Shown here one piece after another: positions 530-61,456 of a DNA stretch of 64,000 nucleotides. The notes beneath the pieces were generated by a model. It was not told the DNA's origin. It saw only the letters and a program-made list of their open reading frames with translations, and made no database searches. This stretch comes from Crossaster papposus (lineage: Eukaryota > Echinodermata > Asteroidea > Velatida > Solasteridae). Position 1 is the first letter of the stretch; the number at the start of each line of letters is the position of its first letter. Position numbers and translations under genes: made by a program. Location: NCBI GenBank assembly GCA_037893245.1, contig JBAIAA010001114.1, forward strand, positions 248,001 to 312,000. The letters run 5' to 3'.

Positions 530-898
530 ATGGCTCCTAAAGTTAGCGGAAAAGGCCAGAAGAAGGCAGGCAACACCAAGGCTCCGGTCAGCATAAACAA
601 GAAGAGGCGCCGGCGTCGCAAGGAGAGCTACGGCATCTACATCTACAAAGTCATGAAACAGGTGCACCCCGACACAGGAATCTCAAGCAAGGCAATGAGC
701 ATCATGAACAGCTTTGTCAACGACGTGTTTGAGCGCATCGCCGGGGAATCTTCTCGCCTTGCCCACTACAACAAGAAGTCGACCATCTCAAGTCGTGAAG
801 TGCAGACTGCAGTACGTCTTATCCTCCCGGGAGAGCTTGCCAAGCATGCAGTCAGCGAAGGGACCAAGGCCGTCACCAAGTATACTACTTCAAAATAG
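530..898 (+). CDS. H2B: Histone H2B, unit 1
   Basis: Core histone H2B, 122 residues, which pairs with H2A in the nucleosome and acts in the nucleus. The basic N-terminal tail (about residues 1-36) includes an Arg-rich stretch at 26-30. The histone fold follows, with the conserved [11 protein letters not shown] start (31-41), HPDTG (46-50) and the C-terminal [18 protein letters not shown] helix. Lys117 corresponds to the ubiquitinated Lys120 of vertebrate H2B. The length is normal for the family. The start is fixed by the MAPK N-terminus and by the promoter 39-70 bp upstream. There are no introns. The 3' stem-loop at 944-959 marks it as a replication-dependent gene. The tail resembles echinoderm and amphioxus H2B (SGKGQKKAG), an impression from memory. 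Confidence 0.98.
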
Positions 899-1970: not shown

Positions 1971-2348
1971 ATGACTGGACGAGGAAAGAGCGGAAAAGCA
2001 AGAAGCAAGGCCAGGAGCAGGTCCTCAAGGGCGGGACTGCAGTTCCCCGTGGGTCGTGTTCATCGATTTTTGCGAAGGGGCAACTACGCTGAGCGGGTTG
2101 GAGCCGGTGCACCGGTCTACCTGGCAGCCGTGATGGAATACCTGACCGCCGAGATCCTGGAGCTGGCCGGTAACGCAGCACGAGATAATAAGAAGACGAG
2201 AATTAACCCTCGACACCTGCAGCTTGCTATACGCAACGACGAAGAGCTTAACAAGTTGATGAGTGGAGTTACCATCGCGCAAGGCGGTGTGCTTCCCAAC
2301 ATCCAGCAAGTACTTCTGCCCAAAAAGACCGCCAAAGTATCAAAGTAA
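1971..2348 (+). CDS. H2A: Histone H2A, unit 1
   Basis: Core histone H2A, 125 residues with Met, partner of H2B. The N-terminal tail [10 protein letters not shown] is followed by [16 protein letters not shown] and the histone fold. Acidic-patch residues are all present (Glu55, Glu60, Glu63, Asp89, Glu90, Glu91 counted without Met). Docking-domain GGVLPNI and the LLPKKT ubiquitination site are also present. There is no SQ(E/D)-aromatic end, so it is not H2A.X, and it is not an H2A.Z type. Unusual residues: Thr at position 1 where Ser is usual, Asn78 (Ile in most animal H2A), Met96 and Gln112. The reading frame stays open 189 bp upstream, but that stretch contains the CCAAT and TATA boxes, so the internal ATG at 1971 is the start. 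Confidence 0.98.
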
Positions 2349-3862: not shown

Positions 3863-3911
3863 ATTTGCATACATAATTCCAGAGCGCCCTATTGGTTCAA
3901 TATCAATCGTT
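3863..3911 (+). promoter_or_regulatory. U2 snRNA proximal promoter with octamer
   Basis: A perfect octamer ATTTGCAT (3863-3870) lies at -49 to -42 relative to U2, in the window where the proximal sequence element of snRNA genes is expected. An inverted CCAAT (ATTGG) lies at about -22. There is no clear TATA box near -25. A GGTTCAATATC near 3894 resembles a Pol III B box but has no partner A box. PSE sequences diverge strongly between phyla, so only its position can be proposed. Confidence 0.4.
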
Positions 3912-4101
3912 ATCGCTTCTCGGCCTTTTGGCTAAGATCATGTGTAGTATCTGTTCTTTTCAGCTTAATATCTGAAACGCTGTTCATCGAACAGCCAGTA
4001 TATTAATCTGATTTTTGGATTTGGGCCGTGGAATAGAGGCTTGCCTCGTCCCGGCCATGGGTTGGCCCGGTATAGCAGTACATCCGGGATTCGGCCCACT
4101 C
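3912..4101 (+). ncRNA. U2: U2 spliceosomal snRNA, unit 1
   Basis: U2 snRNA pairs with the intron branch site and with U6 in the spliceosome. The 5' end ATCGCTTCTCGGCCTTTTGG and the following block are nearly identical to animal U2. The branch-site recognition GTAGTA is at 3944-3949. Stem IIb is a perfect 7-bp hairpin (3979-3985 with 3989-3995). The Sm site GATTTTTGG is at 4010-4018. Stem-loop IV is closed by CCCGG/CCGGG (4066-4070, 4084-4088), with the loop TATAGCAGTAC for the U2A'/U2B'' proteins. Length is about 190 nt against 187 in human; the exact 3' end is uncertain by 2-3 nt. It has its own promoter and lies between H2A and H4 on the same strand. Confidence 0.96.
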
Positions 4102-4125
4102 CCCTCGGGGAACATCAAATAATAC

Positions 4126-4134
4126 AAAAACAGG
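4126..4134 (+). terminator. snRNA 3' box-like element
   Basis: AAAAACAGG matches 8 of 9 positions of the AAARNNAGA core of the snRNA 3' box, about 25 nt beyond the U2 3' end. This is slightly further than the 9-19 nt usual in vertebrates. It would direct Integrator-dependent 3' processing. The same site follows the other U2 copies. Confidence 0.4.
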
Positions 4135-5142
<1,008 letters not shown>

Positions 5143-5173
5143 ATGCATGCTACATGCAATTTTCAAACCAAAC

Positions 5174-5189
5174 GGCTCTTTTCAGAGCC
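5174..5189 (+). terminator. Histone 3' stem-loop, H4 unit 1
   Basis: GGCTCTTTTCAGAGCC with a perfect 6-bp stem, followed by the ACCAC flank and a downstream element AAAAAGAGATT (5203-5213) for U7 pairing. Confidence 0.95.
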
Positions 5190-5230
5190 ACCACGATTTC
5201 ACAAAAAGAGATTGATTCCAGGTTTTTATT

Positions 5231-5630: not shown

Positions 5631-6059
<429 letters not shown>

Positions 6060-6090
6060 GTCAAAGCTGTGTGCGCAAAACAAACCGAAC

Positions 6091-6106
6091 GGCCCTTTTC
6101 AGGGCC
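6091..6106 (+). terminator. Histone 3' stem-loop, H3 unit 1
   Basis: GGCCCTTTTCAGGGCC: perfect 6-bp stem, GC-richer than the other three genes. Downstream element AAAGAGAGATT at 6118-6128 for U7 pairing. Confidence 0.95.
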
Positions 6107-10235: not shown

Positions 10236-10425
10236 ATCGCTTCTCGGCCTTTTGGCTAAGATCATGTGTAGTATCTGTTCTTTTCAGCTTAATATCTGAA
10301 ACGCTGTTCATCGAACAGCCAGTATATTAATCTGATTTTTGGATTTGGGCCGTGGAATAGAGGCTTGCCTCGTCCCGGCCATGGGTTGGCCCGGTATAGC
10401 AGTACATCCGGGATTCGGCCCACTC
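10236..10425 (+). ncRNA. U2: U2 snRNA, unit 2
   Basis: Copy of the U2 gene at 3912-4101, with branch-site recognition, Sm site and stem-loop IV intact and the octamer 49 bp upstream. Confidence 0.96.
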
Positions 10426-10869
10426 CCCTCGGGGAACATCAAATAATACAAAAACAGGTCTCGTCTATGTGTATTCCTATGTCGCATCACTTTTACAAGT
10501 TCTTTCTTCGCTTTACTTCGGGGCTTTCGTATATTTAAACATTTCAATACGTCTAAAGTAAATAATTGTATGAAGACCGATCTCTTTGTTTTTGGATGAT
10601 TTCTGATGAAGGAGAAAAACAACAACAAAAACAAACAGGCCCTCTGCGTCTGGTTGTATATTTATTTGACGACGATGTATTAGATTTTCTTTATTTTTTC
10701 CCAATTTTTTTTAATTCATATGATTTCACATAATTGTAGACTTTAGATTTGCTTTTTGTTTGTGGTCTTGTTTTAACTCTATTTTTGTTTGAAATACTGT
10801 ATAGGTAATAATGCAGGGCCGTTTTGGATAGCATTTTTGTTGTAAGTGATAAAACCTCAAATAAAATAA

Positions 10870-16559: not shown

Positions 16560-16749
16560 ATCGCTTCTCGGCCTTTTGGCTAAGATCATGTGTAGTATCT
16601 GTTCTTTTCAGCTTAATATCTGAAACGCTGTTCATCGAACAGCCAGTATATTAATCTGATTTTTGGATTTGGGCCGTGGAATAGAGGCTTGCCTCGTCCC
16701 GGCCATGGGTTGGCCCGGTATAGCAGTACATCCGGGATTCGGCCCACTC
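16560..16749 (+). ncRNA. U2: U2 snRNA, unit 3
   Basis: Copy of the U2 gene at 3912-4101. An extra A at about 16331 in the upstream spacer is private to this unit and lies well outside the proximal promoter. Confidence 0.96.
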
Positions 16750-17193
16750 CCCTCGGGGAACATCAAATAATACAAAAACAGGTCTCGTCTATGTGTATTC
16801 CTATGTCGCATCACTTTTACAAGTTCTTTCTTCGCTTTACTTCGGGGCTTTCGTATATTTAAACATTTCAATACGTCTAAAGTAAATAATTGTATGAAGA
16901 CCGATCTCTTTGTTTTTGGATGATTTCTGATGAAGGAGAAAAACAACAACAAAAACAAACAGGCCCTCTGCGTCTGGTTGTATATTTATTTGACGACGAT
17001 GTATTAGATTTTCTTTATTTTTTCCCAATTTTTTTTAATTCATATGATTTCACATAATTGTAGACTTTAGATTTGCTTTTTGTTTGTGGTCTTGTTTTAA
17101 CTCTATTTTTGTTTGAAATACTGTATAGGTAATAATGCAGGGCCGTTTTGGATAGCATTTTTGTTGTAAGTGATAAAACCTCAAATAAAATAA

Positions 17194-21730: not shown

Positions 21731-23195
21731 AAAGAAATACGCGCTGTGTCTGTACTCTATATATACACGTACTACGCGTACTGTACAGTACATGCATGTT
21801 CAGTTTGTAAAAGTACGTGAATGATATTATACCCGTGACCCAGCACATCAAAATCAAGAATAAGTCGGAAAATGACTTTCACAGATATAAATATAATAAG
21901 ATGGGAAATTCAAGAAGCTTTGTAATGACATCCATCACAAGCCTTTAGCTCGGAAATTATTGGTTACGAGTTACAGACTAGGGATGGGTATCATTAGAAA
22001 GCCTATGGAATTTCAAATGTTACTATGTACATAACGCGAATTGTCATTTCCCGCTTATTAGTGATTTTGATATCCTGGGTCACATTTTCATGGATTTAAC
22101 AAAAACATTGGAAATGTGGTGAGTTGACACTTCGCGTGTGGTCTATTAGCTTTGTTCTCGTGTTCCGTTTTACCTGGGCCCAATGTCGTAACAAATGTAA
22201 GCACACCAATTTGCTTAGCACGAAACATTTTTCCTTGGCCAAACTGTCGTTTCCAAAAATGTCTGAAGATTTCCGAACACGTTTTTGTTGACGGTCGGGT
22301 ATTATCGTTAACGTTCGCGACTACAATTTCGACGTCTGGGTGTACACAATTAAATGGTCAGGCCATGGAACCAGACTATTTTCACCGCCCCCCAAAGTGG
22401 GACATTTAGGTTCTGCTTGAAAACAAATAAACCGGCCTGAACGGTAAACGATCGAGGCGCGGTTGTGCCGAAGGGCGCCATCTATCGGCGCGCTCGTACC
22501 GGGTAGGTCGGTGTAATTACAGCGGCGAGGCGCGGTGCAGCATGGCGATAAATAAGTATACCACTCGCATTTTTCAGATTTTCAAGCGACTTTTGGTTAA
22601 AAAAATGAATTTCGTAAAAGATATTGTCGATGGTGTATGAAAATGTGTTATGAAAAACCCCCAAGATCATGAATATTGATGTAAATAACGTGCCAAAAGT
22701 TGGTAATTTCTCTAAACGGGTTTTTTCGGGTTTGCGTCGGGCTCTGTGAGGAGTCCTTGTATTGATCCCAAATACACAAATTAGAAAAAGTAAAAAATGA
22801 ATATTATTCGGATGAGAACAATGGTCGGGGGAATAAATTTGCATACATAATTCCAGAGCGCCTATTGGTTCAATATCAATCGTTATCGCTTCTCGGCCTT
22901 TTGGCTAAGATCATGTGTAGTATCTGTTCTTTTCAGCTTAATATCTGAAACGCTGTTCATCGAACAGCCAGTATATTAATCTGATTTTTGGATTTGGGCC
23001 GTGGAATAGAGGCTTGCCTCGTCCGGCCCATGGGTTGGCCCGGTATAGCAGTACATCCGGGACTTCGGCCCACTCCCCTCGGGGAACATCAAATAATACA
23101 AAAACAGGTCTCGTCTATGTGTATTCCTAGTCGCATCACTTTTACAAGTTCTTTCTTCGCTTTACTTCGGGCTTTCGTATATTTAAACATTCTCA
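21731..23195. other. Divergent patch of unit 4, probable consensus errors
   Basis: Against the other nine units this stretch holds about 20 differences, nearly all single-base gains or losses in or next to homopolymers, with a net gain of 2 bp. Examples: an extra T near 22230, an extra T in GTTTTTG near 22285, an extra C in CCGCCCCCC near 22391, an extra G in ACCGGGTAGG near 22502, a lost C near 22860, and a lost G in ACTTCGGGC near 23170. The flanking H2A and H4 genes of the same unit are unchanged. The pattern fits a low-coverage or unpolished long-read segment rather than divergence. Confidence 0.75.
22885..23075 (+). ncRNA. U2: U2 snRNA, unit 4, with indels
   Basis: Same gene as at 3912-4101. 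It differs in the stem-loop III region, where GTCCCGGCC reads GTCCGGCCC, and has an extra C before the 3' terminal segment (GGGACTTCGG for GGGATTCGG). The 5' half, branch-site recognition, stem IIb and Sm site are unchanged. It lies inside the error-like patch, so these changes may not be real. If real, this would be a 191-nt variant. Confidence 0.9.
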
Positions 23196-29208: not shown

Positions 29209-29398
29209 ATCGCTTCTCGGCCTTTTGGCTAAGATCATGTGTAGTATCTGTTCTTTTCAGCTTAATATCTGAAACGCTGTTCATCGAACAGCCAGTATAT
29301 TAATCTGATTTTTGGATTTGGGCCGTGGAATAGAGGCTTGCCTCGTCCCGGCCATGGGTTGGCCCGGTATAGCAGTACATCCGGGATTCGGCCCACTC
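29209..29398 (+). ncRNA. U2: U2 snRNA, unit 5
   Basis: Copy of the U2 gene at 3912-4101, all landmarks intact. Confidence 0.96.
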
Positions 29399-29842
29399 CC
29401 CTCGGGGAACATCAAATAATACAAAAACAGGTCTCGTCTATGTGTATTCCTATGTCGCATCACTTTTACAAGTTCTTTCTTCGCTTTACTTCGGGGCTTT
29501 CGTATATTTAAACATTTCAATACGTCTAAAGTAAATAATTGTATGAAGACCGATCTCTTTGTTTTTGGATGATTTCTGATGAAGGAGAAAAACAACAACA
29601 AAAACAAACAGGCCCTCTGCGTCTGGTTGTATATTTATTTGACGACGATGTATTAGATTTTCTTTATTTTTTCCCAATTTTTTTTAATTCATATGATTTC
29701 ACATAATTGTAGACTTTAGATTTGCTTTTTGTTTGTGGTCTTGTTTTAACTCTATTTTTGTTTGAAATACTGTATAGGTAATAATGCAGGGCCGTTTTGG
29801 ATAGCATTTTTGTTGTAAGTGATAAAACCTCAAATAAAATAA

Positions 29843-35532: not shown

Positions 35533-35722
35533 ATCGCTTCTCGGCCTTTTGGCTAAGATCATGTGTAGTATCTGTTCTTTTCAGCTTAATATCTGAAACG
35601 CTGTTCATCGAACAGCCAGTATATTAATCTGATTTTTGGATTTGGGCCGTGGAATAGAGGCTTGCCTCGTCCCGGCCATGGGTTGGCCCGGTATAGCAGT
35701 ACATCCGGGATTCGGCCCACTC
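35533..35722 (+). ncRNA. U2: U2 snRNA, unit 6
   Basis: Copy of the U2 gene at 3912-4101, all landmarks intact. Confidence 0.96.
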
Positions 35723-36166
35723 CCCTCGGGGAACATCAAATAATACAAAAACAGGTCTCGTCTATGTGTATTCCTATGTCGCATCACTTTTACAAGTTCT
35801 TTCTTCGCTTTACTTCGGGGCTTTCGTATATTTAAACATTTCAATACGTCTAAAGTAAATAATTGTATGAAGACCGATCTCTTTGTTTTTGGATGATTTC
35901 TGATGAAGGAGAAAAACAACAACAAAAACAAACAGGCCCTCTGCGTCTGGTTGTATATTTATTTGACGACGATGTATTAGATTTTCTTTATTTTTTCCCA
36001 ATTTTTTTTAATTCATATGATTTCACATAATTGTAGACTTTAGATTTGCTTTTTGTTTGTGGTCTTGTTTTAACTCTATTTTTGTTTGAAATACTGTATA
36101 GGTAATAATGCAGGGCCGTTTTGGATAGCATTTTTGTTGTAAGTGATAAAACCTCAAATAAAATAA

Positions 36167-41857: not shown

Positions 41858-42047
41858 ATCGCTTCTCGGCCTTTTGGCTAAGATCATGTGTAGTATCTGT
41901 TCTTTTCAGCTTAATATCTGAAACGCTGTTCATCGAACAGCCAGTATATTAATCTGATTTTTGGATTTGGGCCGTGGAATAGAGGCTTGCCTCGTCCCGG
42001 CCATGGGTTGGCCCGGTATAGCAGTACATCCGGGATTCGGCCCACTC
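41858..42047 (+). ncRNA. U2: U2 snRNA, unit 7
   Basis: Copy of the U2 gene at 3912-4101. The upstream spacer has one extra T at about 41094 (GTGTGTGAG for GTGGTGAG), private to this unit. Confidence 0.96.
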
Positions 42048-42491
42048 CCCTCGGGGAACATCAAATAATACAAAAACAGGTCTCGTCTATGTGTATTCCT
42101 ATGTCGCATCACTTTTACAAGTTCTTTCTTCGCTTTACTTCGGGGCTTTCGTATATTTAAACATTTCAATACGTCTAAAGTAAATAATTGTATGAAGACC
42201 GATCTCTTTGTTTTTGGATGATTTCTGATGAAGGAGAAAAACAACAACAAAAACAAACAGGCCCTCTGCGTCTGGTTGTATATTTATTTGACGACGATGT
42301 ATTAGATTTTCTTTATTTTTTCCCAATTTTTTTTAATTCATATGATTTCACATAATTGTAGACTTTAGATTTGCTTTTTGTTTGTGGTCTTGTTTTAACT
42401 CTATTTTTGTTTGAAATACTGTATAGGTAATAATGCAGGGCCGTTTTGGATAGCATTTTTGTTGTAAGTGATAAAACCTCAAATAAAATAA

Positions 42492-48181: not shown

Positions 48182-48371
48182 ATCGCTTCTCGGCCTTTTG
48201 GCTAAGATCATGTGTAGTATCTGTTCTTTTCAGCTTAATATCTGAAACGCTGTTCATCGAACAGCCAGTATATTAATCTGATTTTTGGATTTGGGCCGTG
48301 GAATAGAGGCTTGCCTCGTCCCGGCCATGGGTTGGCCCGGTATAGCAGTACATCCGGGATTCGGCCCACTC
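48182..48371 (+). ncRNA. U2: U2 snRNA, unit 8
   Basis: Copy of the U2 gene at 3912-4101, all landmarks intact. Confidence 0.96.
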
Positions 48372-48815
48372 CCCTCGGGGAACATCAAATAATACAAAAA
48401 CAGGTCTCGTCTATGTGTATTCCTATGTCGCATCACTTTTACAAGTTCTTTCTTCGCTTTACTTCGGGGCTTTCGTATATTTAAACATTTCAATACGTCT
48501 AAAGTAAATAATTGTATGAAGACCGATCTCTTTGTTTTTGGATGATTTCTGATGAAGGAGAAAAACAACAACAAAAACAAACAGGCCCTCTGCGTCTGGT
48601 TGTATATTTATTTGACGACGATGTATTAGATTTTCTTTATTTTTTCCCAATTTTTTTTAATTCATATGATTTCACATAATTGTAGACTTTAGATTTGCTT
48701 TTTGTTTGTGGTCTTGTTTTAACTCTATTTTTGTTTGAAATACTGTATAGGTAATAATGCAGGGCCGTTTTGGATAGCATTTTTGTTGTAAGTGATAAAA
48801 CCTCAAATAAAATAA

Positions 48816-54502: not shown

Positions 54503-54692
54503 ATCGCTTCTCGGCCTTTTGGCTAAGATCATGTGTAGTATCTGTTCTTTTCAGCTTAATATCTGAAACGCTGTTCATCGAACAGCCAGTATATTAATCT
54601 GATTTTTGGATTTGGGCCGTGGAATAGAGGCTTGCCTCGTCCCGGCCATGGGTTGGCCCGGTATAGCAGTACATCCGGGATTCGGCCCACTC
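54503..54692 (+). ncRNA. U2: U2 snRNA, unit 9
   Basis: Copy of the U2 gene at 3912-4101, all landmarks intact. Confidence 0.96.
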
Positions 54693-55136
54693 CCCTCGGG
54701 GAACATCAAATAATACAAAAACAGGTCTCGTCTATGTGTATTCCTATGTCGCATCACTTTTACAAGTTCTTTCTTCGCTTTACTTCGGGGCTTTCGTATA
54801 TTTAAACATTTCAATACGTCTAAAGTAAATAATTGTATGAAGACCGATCTCTTTGTTTTTGGATGATTTCTGATGAAGGAGAAAAACAACAACAAAAACA
54901 AACAGGCCCTCTGCGTCTGGTTGTATATTTATTTGACGACGATGTATTAGATTTTCTTTATTTTTTCCCAATTTTTTTTAATTCATATGATTTCACATAA
55001 TTGTAGACTTTAGATTTGCTTTTTGTTTGTGGTCTTGTTTTAACTCTATTTTTGTTTGAAATACTGTATAGGTAATAATGCAGGGCCGTTTTGGATAGCA
55101 TTTTTGTTGTAAGTGATAAAACCTCAAATAAAATAA

Positions 55137-60822: not shown

Positions 60823-61012
60823 ATCGCTTCTCGGCCTTTTGGCTAAGATCATGTGTAGTATCTGTTCTTTTCAGCTTAATATCTGAAACGCTGTTCATCG
60901 AACAGCCAGTATATTAATCTGATTTTTGGATTTGGGCCGTGGAATAGAGGCTTGCCTCGTCCCGGCCATGGGTTGGCCCGGTATAGCAGTACATCCGGGA
61001 TTCGGCCCACTC
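60823..61012 (+). ncRNA. U2: U2 snRNA, unit 10
   Basis: Copy of the U2 gene at 3912-4101, all landmarks intact. Confidence 0.96.
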
Positions 61013-61456
61013 CCCTCGGGGAACATCAAATAATACAAAAACAGGTCTCGTCTATGTGTATTCCTATGTCGCATCACTTTTACAAGTTCTTTCTTCGCTT
61101 TACTTCGGGGCTTTCGTATATTTAAACATTTCAATACGTCTAAAGTAAATAATTGTATGAAGACCGATCTCTTTGTTTTTGGATGATTTCTGATGAAGGA
61201 GAAAAACAACAACAAAAACAAACAGGCCCTCTGCGTCTGGTTGTATATTTATTTGACGACGATGTATTAGATTTTCTTTATTTTTTCCCAATTTTTTTTA
61301 ATTCATATGATTTCACATAATTGTAGACTTTAGATTTGCTTTTTGTTTGTGGTCTTGTTTTAACTCTATTTTTGTTTGAAATACTGTATAGGTAATAATG
61401 CAGGGCCGTTTTGGATAGCATTTTTGTTGTAAGTGATAAAACCTCAAATAAAATAA

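Follow-up and report, generated by a model that had tools for sequence, protein, structure and literature searches.

U2 snRNA genes in the tandem histone repeats of Crossaster papposus and the elements inserted in them

The histone repeat unit and its U2 gene

The window, by which we mean the whole stretch of 64,000 nucleotides analysed (contig C1113, positions 248001-312000), comprises ten complete units in tandem, each 6,319-6,332 bp (~6.32 kb) long as judged from the spacing of exact start words, and every unit carries the genes in the order H2B-H2A-U2-H4-H3, all on the + strand. The start words of H2A, H4 and H3 were found ten times each and that of H2B eleven times, the extra H2B being part of an incomplete unit. 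An earlier note on this DNA had placed a U2 snRNA gene between H2A and H4, on the same strand, in all ten units, and both the cmscan matches and the start words bear this out (10/10 in the window). The features of unit 1 and the remaining U2 genes are as follows.

530..898 (+): H2B coding sequence, unit 1, 122 aa; stem-loop at 939-984
1971..2348 (+): H2A coding sequence, unit 1, 125 aa; stem-loop at 2383-2428
3863..3870 (+): octamer ATTTGCAT at -49 of U2, one per unit, putative promoter element
3912..4104 (+): U2 snRNA gene, unit 1 (RF00004, 182.3 bits)
3946..3950 (+): U2 nt 35-39, the point at which U2 resumes after an insert in other genomic copies; unbroken here
4113..4134 (+): weakly supported 3'-box-like sequence downstream of U2, conserved between the array lineages aligned
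4831..5142 (+): H4 coding sequence, unit 1; stem-loop at 5169-5214
5649..6059 (+): H3 coding sequence, unit 1; stem-loop-like sequence at ~6090-6105, under the Rfam cut-off
10236..10428 (+): U2, unit 2, identical
16560..16752 (+): U2, unit 3, identical
22885..23078 (+): U2, unit 4, two substitutions and one inserted base (171.5 bits)
29209..29401 (+): U2, unit 5, identical
35533..35725 (+): U2, unit 6, identical
41858..42050 (+): U2, unit 7, identical
48182..48374 (+): U2, unit 8, identical
54503..54695 (+): U2, unit 9, identical
60823..61015 (+): U2, unit 10, identical

Unit 1 has an open frame for each of the four histones, and Pfam assigns all of them to histone families, H4 by a match below threshold although its sequence is unmistakably that of H4. 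Over the whole window, cmscan returned 30 Rfam histone stem-loops, which belong to H2B, H2A and H4 and lie on the strand of the genes, the H3 stem-loops scoring under the Rfam cut-off. Apart from U2 and these stem-loops, no RNA gene was found in the window at the Rfam gathering threshold; U1 and 5S were rejected as parts of the window unit on zero matches at this threshold, and H1 is absent from the listed frames of the unit.

The unit-1 U2 matches its covariance model over the full length (192/192 model positions, 182.3 bits where the cut-off is 46), including the branch-site-binding GUAGUA, and its mature end probably lies near 4100. Nine of the ten U2 genes in the window reach the same score and are identical across 193 nt, while the unit-4 copy, at 171.5 bits, has substitutions at two paired positions, nt 141 and nt 143, as well as an extra base near nt 178. 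The claim of a U2 gene in every unit is confirmed for the window, unit 4 being slightly different. The unit-4 copy falls within a stretch of ~1 kb (~22182-23186) that accounts for 23 differences private to unit 4, 13 of them single-base indels, and that is either a badly polished stretch or a converted segment. Elsewhere the ten units differ in only 27 columns of their alignment, and a (TTTG)n run contains many of these.

Further details of the unit may be recorded here. The (TTTG)n microsatellite, with 27 to 32.5 copies, lies upstream of every H2B (215-336 in unit 1) and is among the few sites of length difference between units. In the H2B-H2A spacer, an exon-like block at 1576-1698, noticed by eye, is flanked by an AG-ending pyrimidine-rich stretch on one side and by GTAAGC on the other. 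A single copy per unit of CTAGAGGGCGCC, at 4691-4702 upstream of H4, has what we take to be a resemblance to the CTCF core motif. Finally, nt 30 of U2 (position 3941), beside the branch-site-binding sequence, is U where the Rfam consensus has A.

Array and dispersed U2 genes across the assembly

Throughout the assembly (1.02 Gb in 1,841 contigs), the 50-base U2 core (nt 19-68) occurs 478 times with no mismatch allowed and the 25-base U2 3' piece (nt 86-110) 902 times with up to one mismatch, so that point variants fall under copies counted as not intact, and both haplotypes may be included in places. The 23-base 3' flank of the array U2 occurs 904 times and an exact 41-base piece of H4 717 times. 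Three of the 902 U2 3' matches (on C53, C74 and C815) have the exact dispersed form described below, and the array base is present in all 97 others among the 100 listed; subtracting the three gives ~899 array-type 3' ends, a type assignment that is taken from these 97 matches. When the three dispersed genes are likewise removed from the cores, with the membership of the C815 gene deduced from the C815 sequence, 475 exact 5' cores stand against these ~899 3' ends. On contig C9, furthermore, the U2 3' end lies 1.11-1.14 kb upstream of H4 for 72/72 H4 matches, the full set on that contig. The linkage of U2 to the histone unit therefore holds across the genome, and array-type genes make up nearly all U2 copies found. 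These pattern counts were used instead of an Rfam-scored genome search, which yielded at least 46 U2 from 41,684 candidates. The mitochondrial COX1 on contig C1841 shows conserved stretches such as STNHKDIG, GNWLIP and MNNMSFW when translated with code 9, in which AAA stands for Asn, and has Lys at those sites with the other codes compared; code 9 is used by echinoderms and also by flatworms. Ahead of COX1, four tRNA genes were found, Leu, Tyr and Leu on the minus strand and Gln on the plus strand, an arrangement resembling that of sea stars. Both features point to an echinoderm, probably one of the Asteroidea.

For comparison of the arrays, one intact unit per contig was aligned from C1113 (the window), C9, C280, C396 and C50. 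The five units, of 6,239 to 6,507 bp, fall into three lineages, namely the window with C280, C9 with C396, and C50 by itself. Tandem arrays are difficult to assemble, and the private differences of unit 4, rich in single-base indels, look like badly polished sequence; one might hence suspect that two separate tandem arrays were misjoined and that the U2-histone junction was created in this way. Such an artefact is scarcely credible, as the arrangement recurs on many contigs and in three lineages that differ in spacer sequence and unit length, and as the U2 3' end accompanies every one of the H4 copies found on C9.

Within this alignment, U2 shows 0/189 substitutions in the ten pairs of units, whereas the divergence of spacers between lineages is 3.0-8.7%. 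Were U2 to change as fast as spacer, the probability of its having no substitution would be ~5e-8 for the window and C9 and 0.003 for the window and C50. The 50 nt downstream of U2 are nearly unchanged across the units compared, and the 120 nt upstream are not clearly more conserved than spacer. U2 is free of decay in these lineages. A simple reading as constraint is weakened by the histone coding sequences, which are well kept too (H3, 3/411 between the window and C9), so that gene conversion may account for part of the U2 identity, and by ten inspected split copies on C9 (see below), whose U2 3' parts have not decayed either. Even so, the invariance of U2 among lineages whose spacers differ by 3-9% makes the array U2 look functional, and from these comparisons we consider it quite probably so.

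The three dispersed U2 genes share 85.9-88.6% identity with one another over ~850-1,160 nt around U2, but are alignable with the array over 202-223 nt only, that is, U2 plus a few bases. They differ from the array U2 at 8-9 positions, the array-specific bases including U72/A80, U96 and G167, where the dispersed form has C72/G80, A96 and C167. From the array to the dispersed form, one stem pair changes from U-A to C-G and one from A-U to G-U, the other changes being at unpaired positions; given this swap of a stem pair and the mostly unpaired nature of the changes, both classes look like working RNAs. The U at nt 30 is common to the array U2 and all three dispersed genes, so that it is a lineage trait, and the reading of the array U2 as a pseudogene on account of this base was rejected. 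As to the separate canonical U2 cluster that had been contemplated earlier, a second class of genes does exist outside the array, but only three members were found and no large cluster.

The earlier note had also credited each array U2 with its own promoter and a 3' box-like element. A motif, ACTGTGACT, occurs with up to two mismatches and mostly near -57 in 28/30 distinct upstream regions of U1 (12) and U5 (18), a count made in the same genes from which the motif was picked. All three dispersed U2 genes have a match at -58 with two mismatches, which 5% of shuffled sequences equal. In contrast, none of the four distinct upstream regions of the array U2 contains the motif, the best match having four mismatches, like shuffled sequence; use of the U1/U5 motif by the array U2 was therefore rejected, and a promoter of its own is not something that the sequence reveals. 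The octamer ATTTGCAT at -49 may be a promoter element, and octamers are also present near -140 in 4/11 U1 upstream regions. The array U2 would have either a different proximal element or some other drive. Sea urchin embryonic snRNA promoter elements are very dissimilar to one another, and for this reason the absent motif is no proof of silence. The 3' box-like element fared somewhat better, as the stretch is present and kept in the lineages compared, albeit weakly supported by shuffling (P ~0.03).

U1 and U5 genes, too, occur in tandem arrays and as dispersed copies. A U1 tandem unit of ~1.37 kb is found on C319 and C579, part of the U5 genes lies in ~0.68 kb tandem units on C54, and several U5 genes form divergent pairs. 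Among the matches listed, the contigs with U1 or U5 do not overlap with those carrying the array U2.

Split U2 genes, their inserts and a derived array

On contig C9, 39/79 U2 copies are intact and occur in irregular runs; one of the 40 non-intact copies, whose spacing is the usual 6,249 bp, could represent a point variant. Among 27 loci (L012-L038), 17 are intact and ten start U2 only at nt 35-39, after foreign DNA, so all ten of the non-intact loci inspected (10/10) are split by inserted DNA near this point. Histone units devoid of U2 were considered and rejected, as the gaps in the exact-core list held a split U2 at every place inspected. Three inserts on C9 were read.

C9:50728-53233: ins1, 2,506 bp, with a 563-aa frame bearing zinc-finger-like motifs under Pfam cut-offs
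C9:65727-67460: ins2, 1,734 bp, with a 450-aa frame bearing CCHC knuckles
C9:67929-71098: ins3, with a reverse transcriptase; U2 rejoined at nt 39

U2 resumes at nt 39 after ins3 and likewise at L023, L024 and L026. A further stretch (C9:76001-85097) contains the element twice, head to tail, in copies that are 99.97% identical to ins3 over 3,167 bp, a near-identity to this third copy that suggests recent activity or copying with the array. One of the two head-to-tail copies has an open frame of 1,574 aa with C2H2-like fingers and a reverse transcriptase (RVT_1, 1.5e-34 in Pfam). Compared with solved R2 proteins, this frame matches at 6.3e-66 in the reverse transcriptase, and its C-terminal 325 aa match the corresponding end of those proteins at 3.3e-17, with the PD and D of the endonuclease motif aligned.

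The longest frames of ins1 and ins2 gave zinc-finger matches only, with neither a reverse transcriptase nor an apurinic-type endonuclease found in them, and their identification as Keno was rejected on these grounds. The two are mutually unrelated inserts at the U2 site, and they may be short elements dependent on a helper.

Allowing up to one mismatch, the assembly contains 120 junctions of ins1, 114 of ins2, 26 of ins3 and 121 of a relative of ins1. The four types sum to 381, against 424 non-intact copies, and are not a strict subset of these, as at least one ins3 junction lies inside a tandem pair. One ins3 junction occurs elsewhere on the contig of the window (C1113:129257). If copies were independent, ten intact ones in a row, as in the window, would arise at the genome frequency with a chance of 0.0017; this rarity indicates that intact units cluster, as local amplification predicts. 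That about half of the array U2 is not intact and yet tolerated further implies that many array copies are dispensable.

A derived array departs further from the unit of the window. Among the 100 of 121 ins1-relative junctions listed, 41 lie on C136, C726, C1306, C1486, C1531 and C1743, in runs spaced ~5.97 kb. Two of these units were read (C1743:11900-18000 and C1306:15000-21100), and the four further contigs are assigned by spacing. Each of the two combines the 3' part of U2, 61 nt from the start of H4 that run into H2B-H2A spacer sequence, a complete H2A, the 5' part of U2 and an element like ins1; H3, H2B, an intact U2 and a full H4 are absent from the units read on C1743 and C1306. An array that keeps H2A without an intact U2 demonstrates that histone and U2 contents can part ways. 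The supposition that U2 copy number is locked to histone copy number accordingly fails twice, on the one hand by only 475 exact 5' cores for ~899 3' ends and by the intact half of the U2 copies on C9, and on the other by this derived array, in which H2A is accompanied only by split U2.

U2 in histone repeats and its possible meaning

Whether the H2B-H2A-U2-H4-H3 unit had a precedent was left undecided in the earlier note. The histone repeat of the hydrozoan Hydractinia echinata, of 5,998 bp, includes U1, U2, 5S and tRNA-Arg, is present in at least 700 copies per haplotype, and has both snRNAs transcribed; its authors suggest a tie to a role of U2 in histone 3'-end formation (PMC5011920). In both species, then, U2 shares a tandem unit of ~6 kb with core histones, and this unit is present in hundreds of copies. 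However, the Hydractinia unit also has U1, 5S, tRNA-Arg and H1, whereas in the window unit of Crossaster U2 is the sole RNA gene at Rfam thresholds and H1 is not among the frames listed. In the open-access literature searched, Hydractinia is the only U2 within a histone repeat that we found (PMC5011920). U2 in a histone repeat is therefore not entirely new, and the repeat described here adds a second instance in a different phylum, one in which no RNA gene other than U2 was found. The partner also sets it apart from repeats in corals, molluscs and fish, in which snRNA genes are joined to 5S rDNA (PMC8167085, PMC9005458): in both instances a small-RNA gene belongs to a joint tandem repeat, but here it is joined to histones and not to 5S.

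With respect to the inserts, the ins3 element resembles Utopia, after which U2 starts at nt 39, whose 3' flank Keno shares, for which tandem insertion is reported, and whose hosts include sea urchins and a starfish (PMC4640811). Like Utopia, the ins3 element rejoins U2 at nt 39, forms tandem copies in an echinoderm host and encodes one protein that runs from N-terminal zinc fingers through a central reverse transcriptase to a C-terminal region with a zinc finger and an R2-like endonuclease. By site, tandem habit and domains, it is assigned as an R2-related retrotransposon at the Utopia site. Unlike Utopia as described, its target lies inside a histone repeat; the word histone does not occur in PMC4640811, and the available part of the Hydractinia paper makes no mention of mobile elements inserted in U2 (PMC5011920). 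Site-specific elements of U2 have been described before, but the open-access literature searched yielded no account of such numbers within a histone array. The situation is reminiscent of ribosomal DNA, in whose arrays the site-specific elements R1 and R2 disable many gene copies and array turnover keeps the gene. Here, as there, a large share of a multicopy gene is disabled and the array persists, but the target is a spliceosomal RNA gene within a repeat of protein genes.

Taken as a whole, the account that we regard as the probable one, on the strength of the sequence comparisons, is that the arrays bear the main U2 supply, that a second, dispersed class exists beside them, and that the arrays outlast their element-split copies through the renewal of intact units by turnover. 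The window lies within one of several long tandem arrays, together holding ~900 U2-bearing repeats in the assembly, of which the fully examined units are mostly of the four-histone type H2B-H2A-U2-H4-H3. These arrays would be the main source of U2 RNA, probably at the time of peak histone demand (oocyte and cleavage), and the three dispersed genes, with their other upstream region, would form the second class. Other copies are split at nt 35-39 by the R2-related retrotransposon and by short elements in which no protein but a zinc-finger or zinc-knuckle one was found, all of which presumably target U2. Like rDNA under R1 and R2, the arrays could survive by an excess of intact units and by renewal through unequal exchange and gene conversion, and renewal from such an excess would couple U2 and histone numbers only loosely.

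Two other explanations deserve weighing against this one. U2 might have been kept in the histone unit because the U2 snRNP helps U7-dependent histone 3'-end formation. Binding of U2 snRNP to intronless histone pre-mRNAs has been reported, with a benefit to their U7-dependent processing (Friend et al. 2007, as described in PMC7452928 and PMC9133132), and the same idea was put forward for the U2-bearing repeat of Hydractinia (PMC5011920). The linkage is, moreover, common to two distant phyla, and U2 is the only RNA gene found in the window beside the histone stem-loops. However, the presence of U1, 5S and tRNA genes in the Hydractinia unit fits a general settling of small-RNA genes in arrays, and in Crossaster about half of the array U2 is non-intact without having been purged, so that we hold such a functional coupling to be rather unlikely. 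Still lower we rate the notion of a passive passenger, i.e. a single landing of U2 that spread by amplification, with an array that is mostly unused and three dispersed genes that supply the RNA. This would accord with the motif near -57, matched in 3/3 dispersed genes and 0/4 array regions, and with the non-intact half of the array copies. Yet, the motif match of the dispersed genes is weak, being equalled by a twentieth of shuffled sequences, and, given how unlike each other the embryonic snRNA promoters of sea urchins are, its absence from the array does not equate to silence. U2 has, moreover, taken no substitution across lineages whose spacers diverged, and the 50 nt after it are conserved too, which makes a mere passenger quite improbable.

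Beyond this account, a broader and doubtful, albeit conceivable, scenario may be sketched: U2 would have been recruited to histone repeats in at least two distant phyla, for histone mRNA maturation or for the joint demand of the egg; the array U2 would be an early-embryo isoform driven by an unlike promoter; and the array would have become an rDNA-like home of U2-specific elements, including those with zinc knuckles only. In any case, with nearly all U2 copies found in the histone arrays of a bilaterian, two large early-embryo demands fall on one locus, a sharing comparable to that reported, within the open-access literature searched, only for a hydrozoan. With about half of the U2 non-intact, a small-RNA passenger can evidently open a histone array to site-specific retrotransposons. 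In addition, the fixed base differences between array and dispersed U2 make the class used, its timing and its snRNP readable from small-RNA data.

A last and separate observation concerns the large contig C8, which at 5208663-5210009 and 2872001-2873343 contains COX1-family frames that are stop-free in the standard code, and which may stem from an assembled bacterial symbiont or contaminant.
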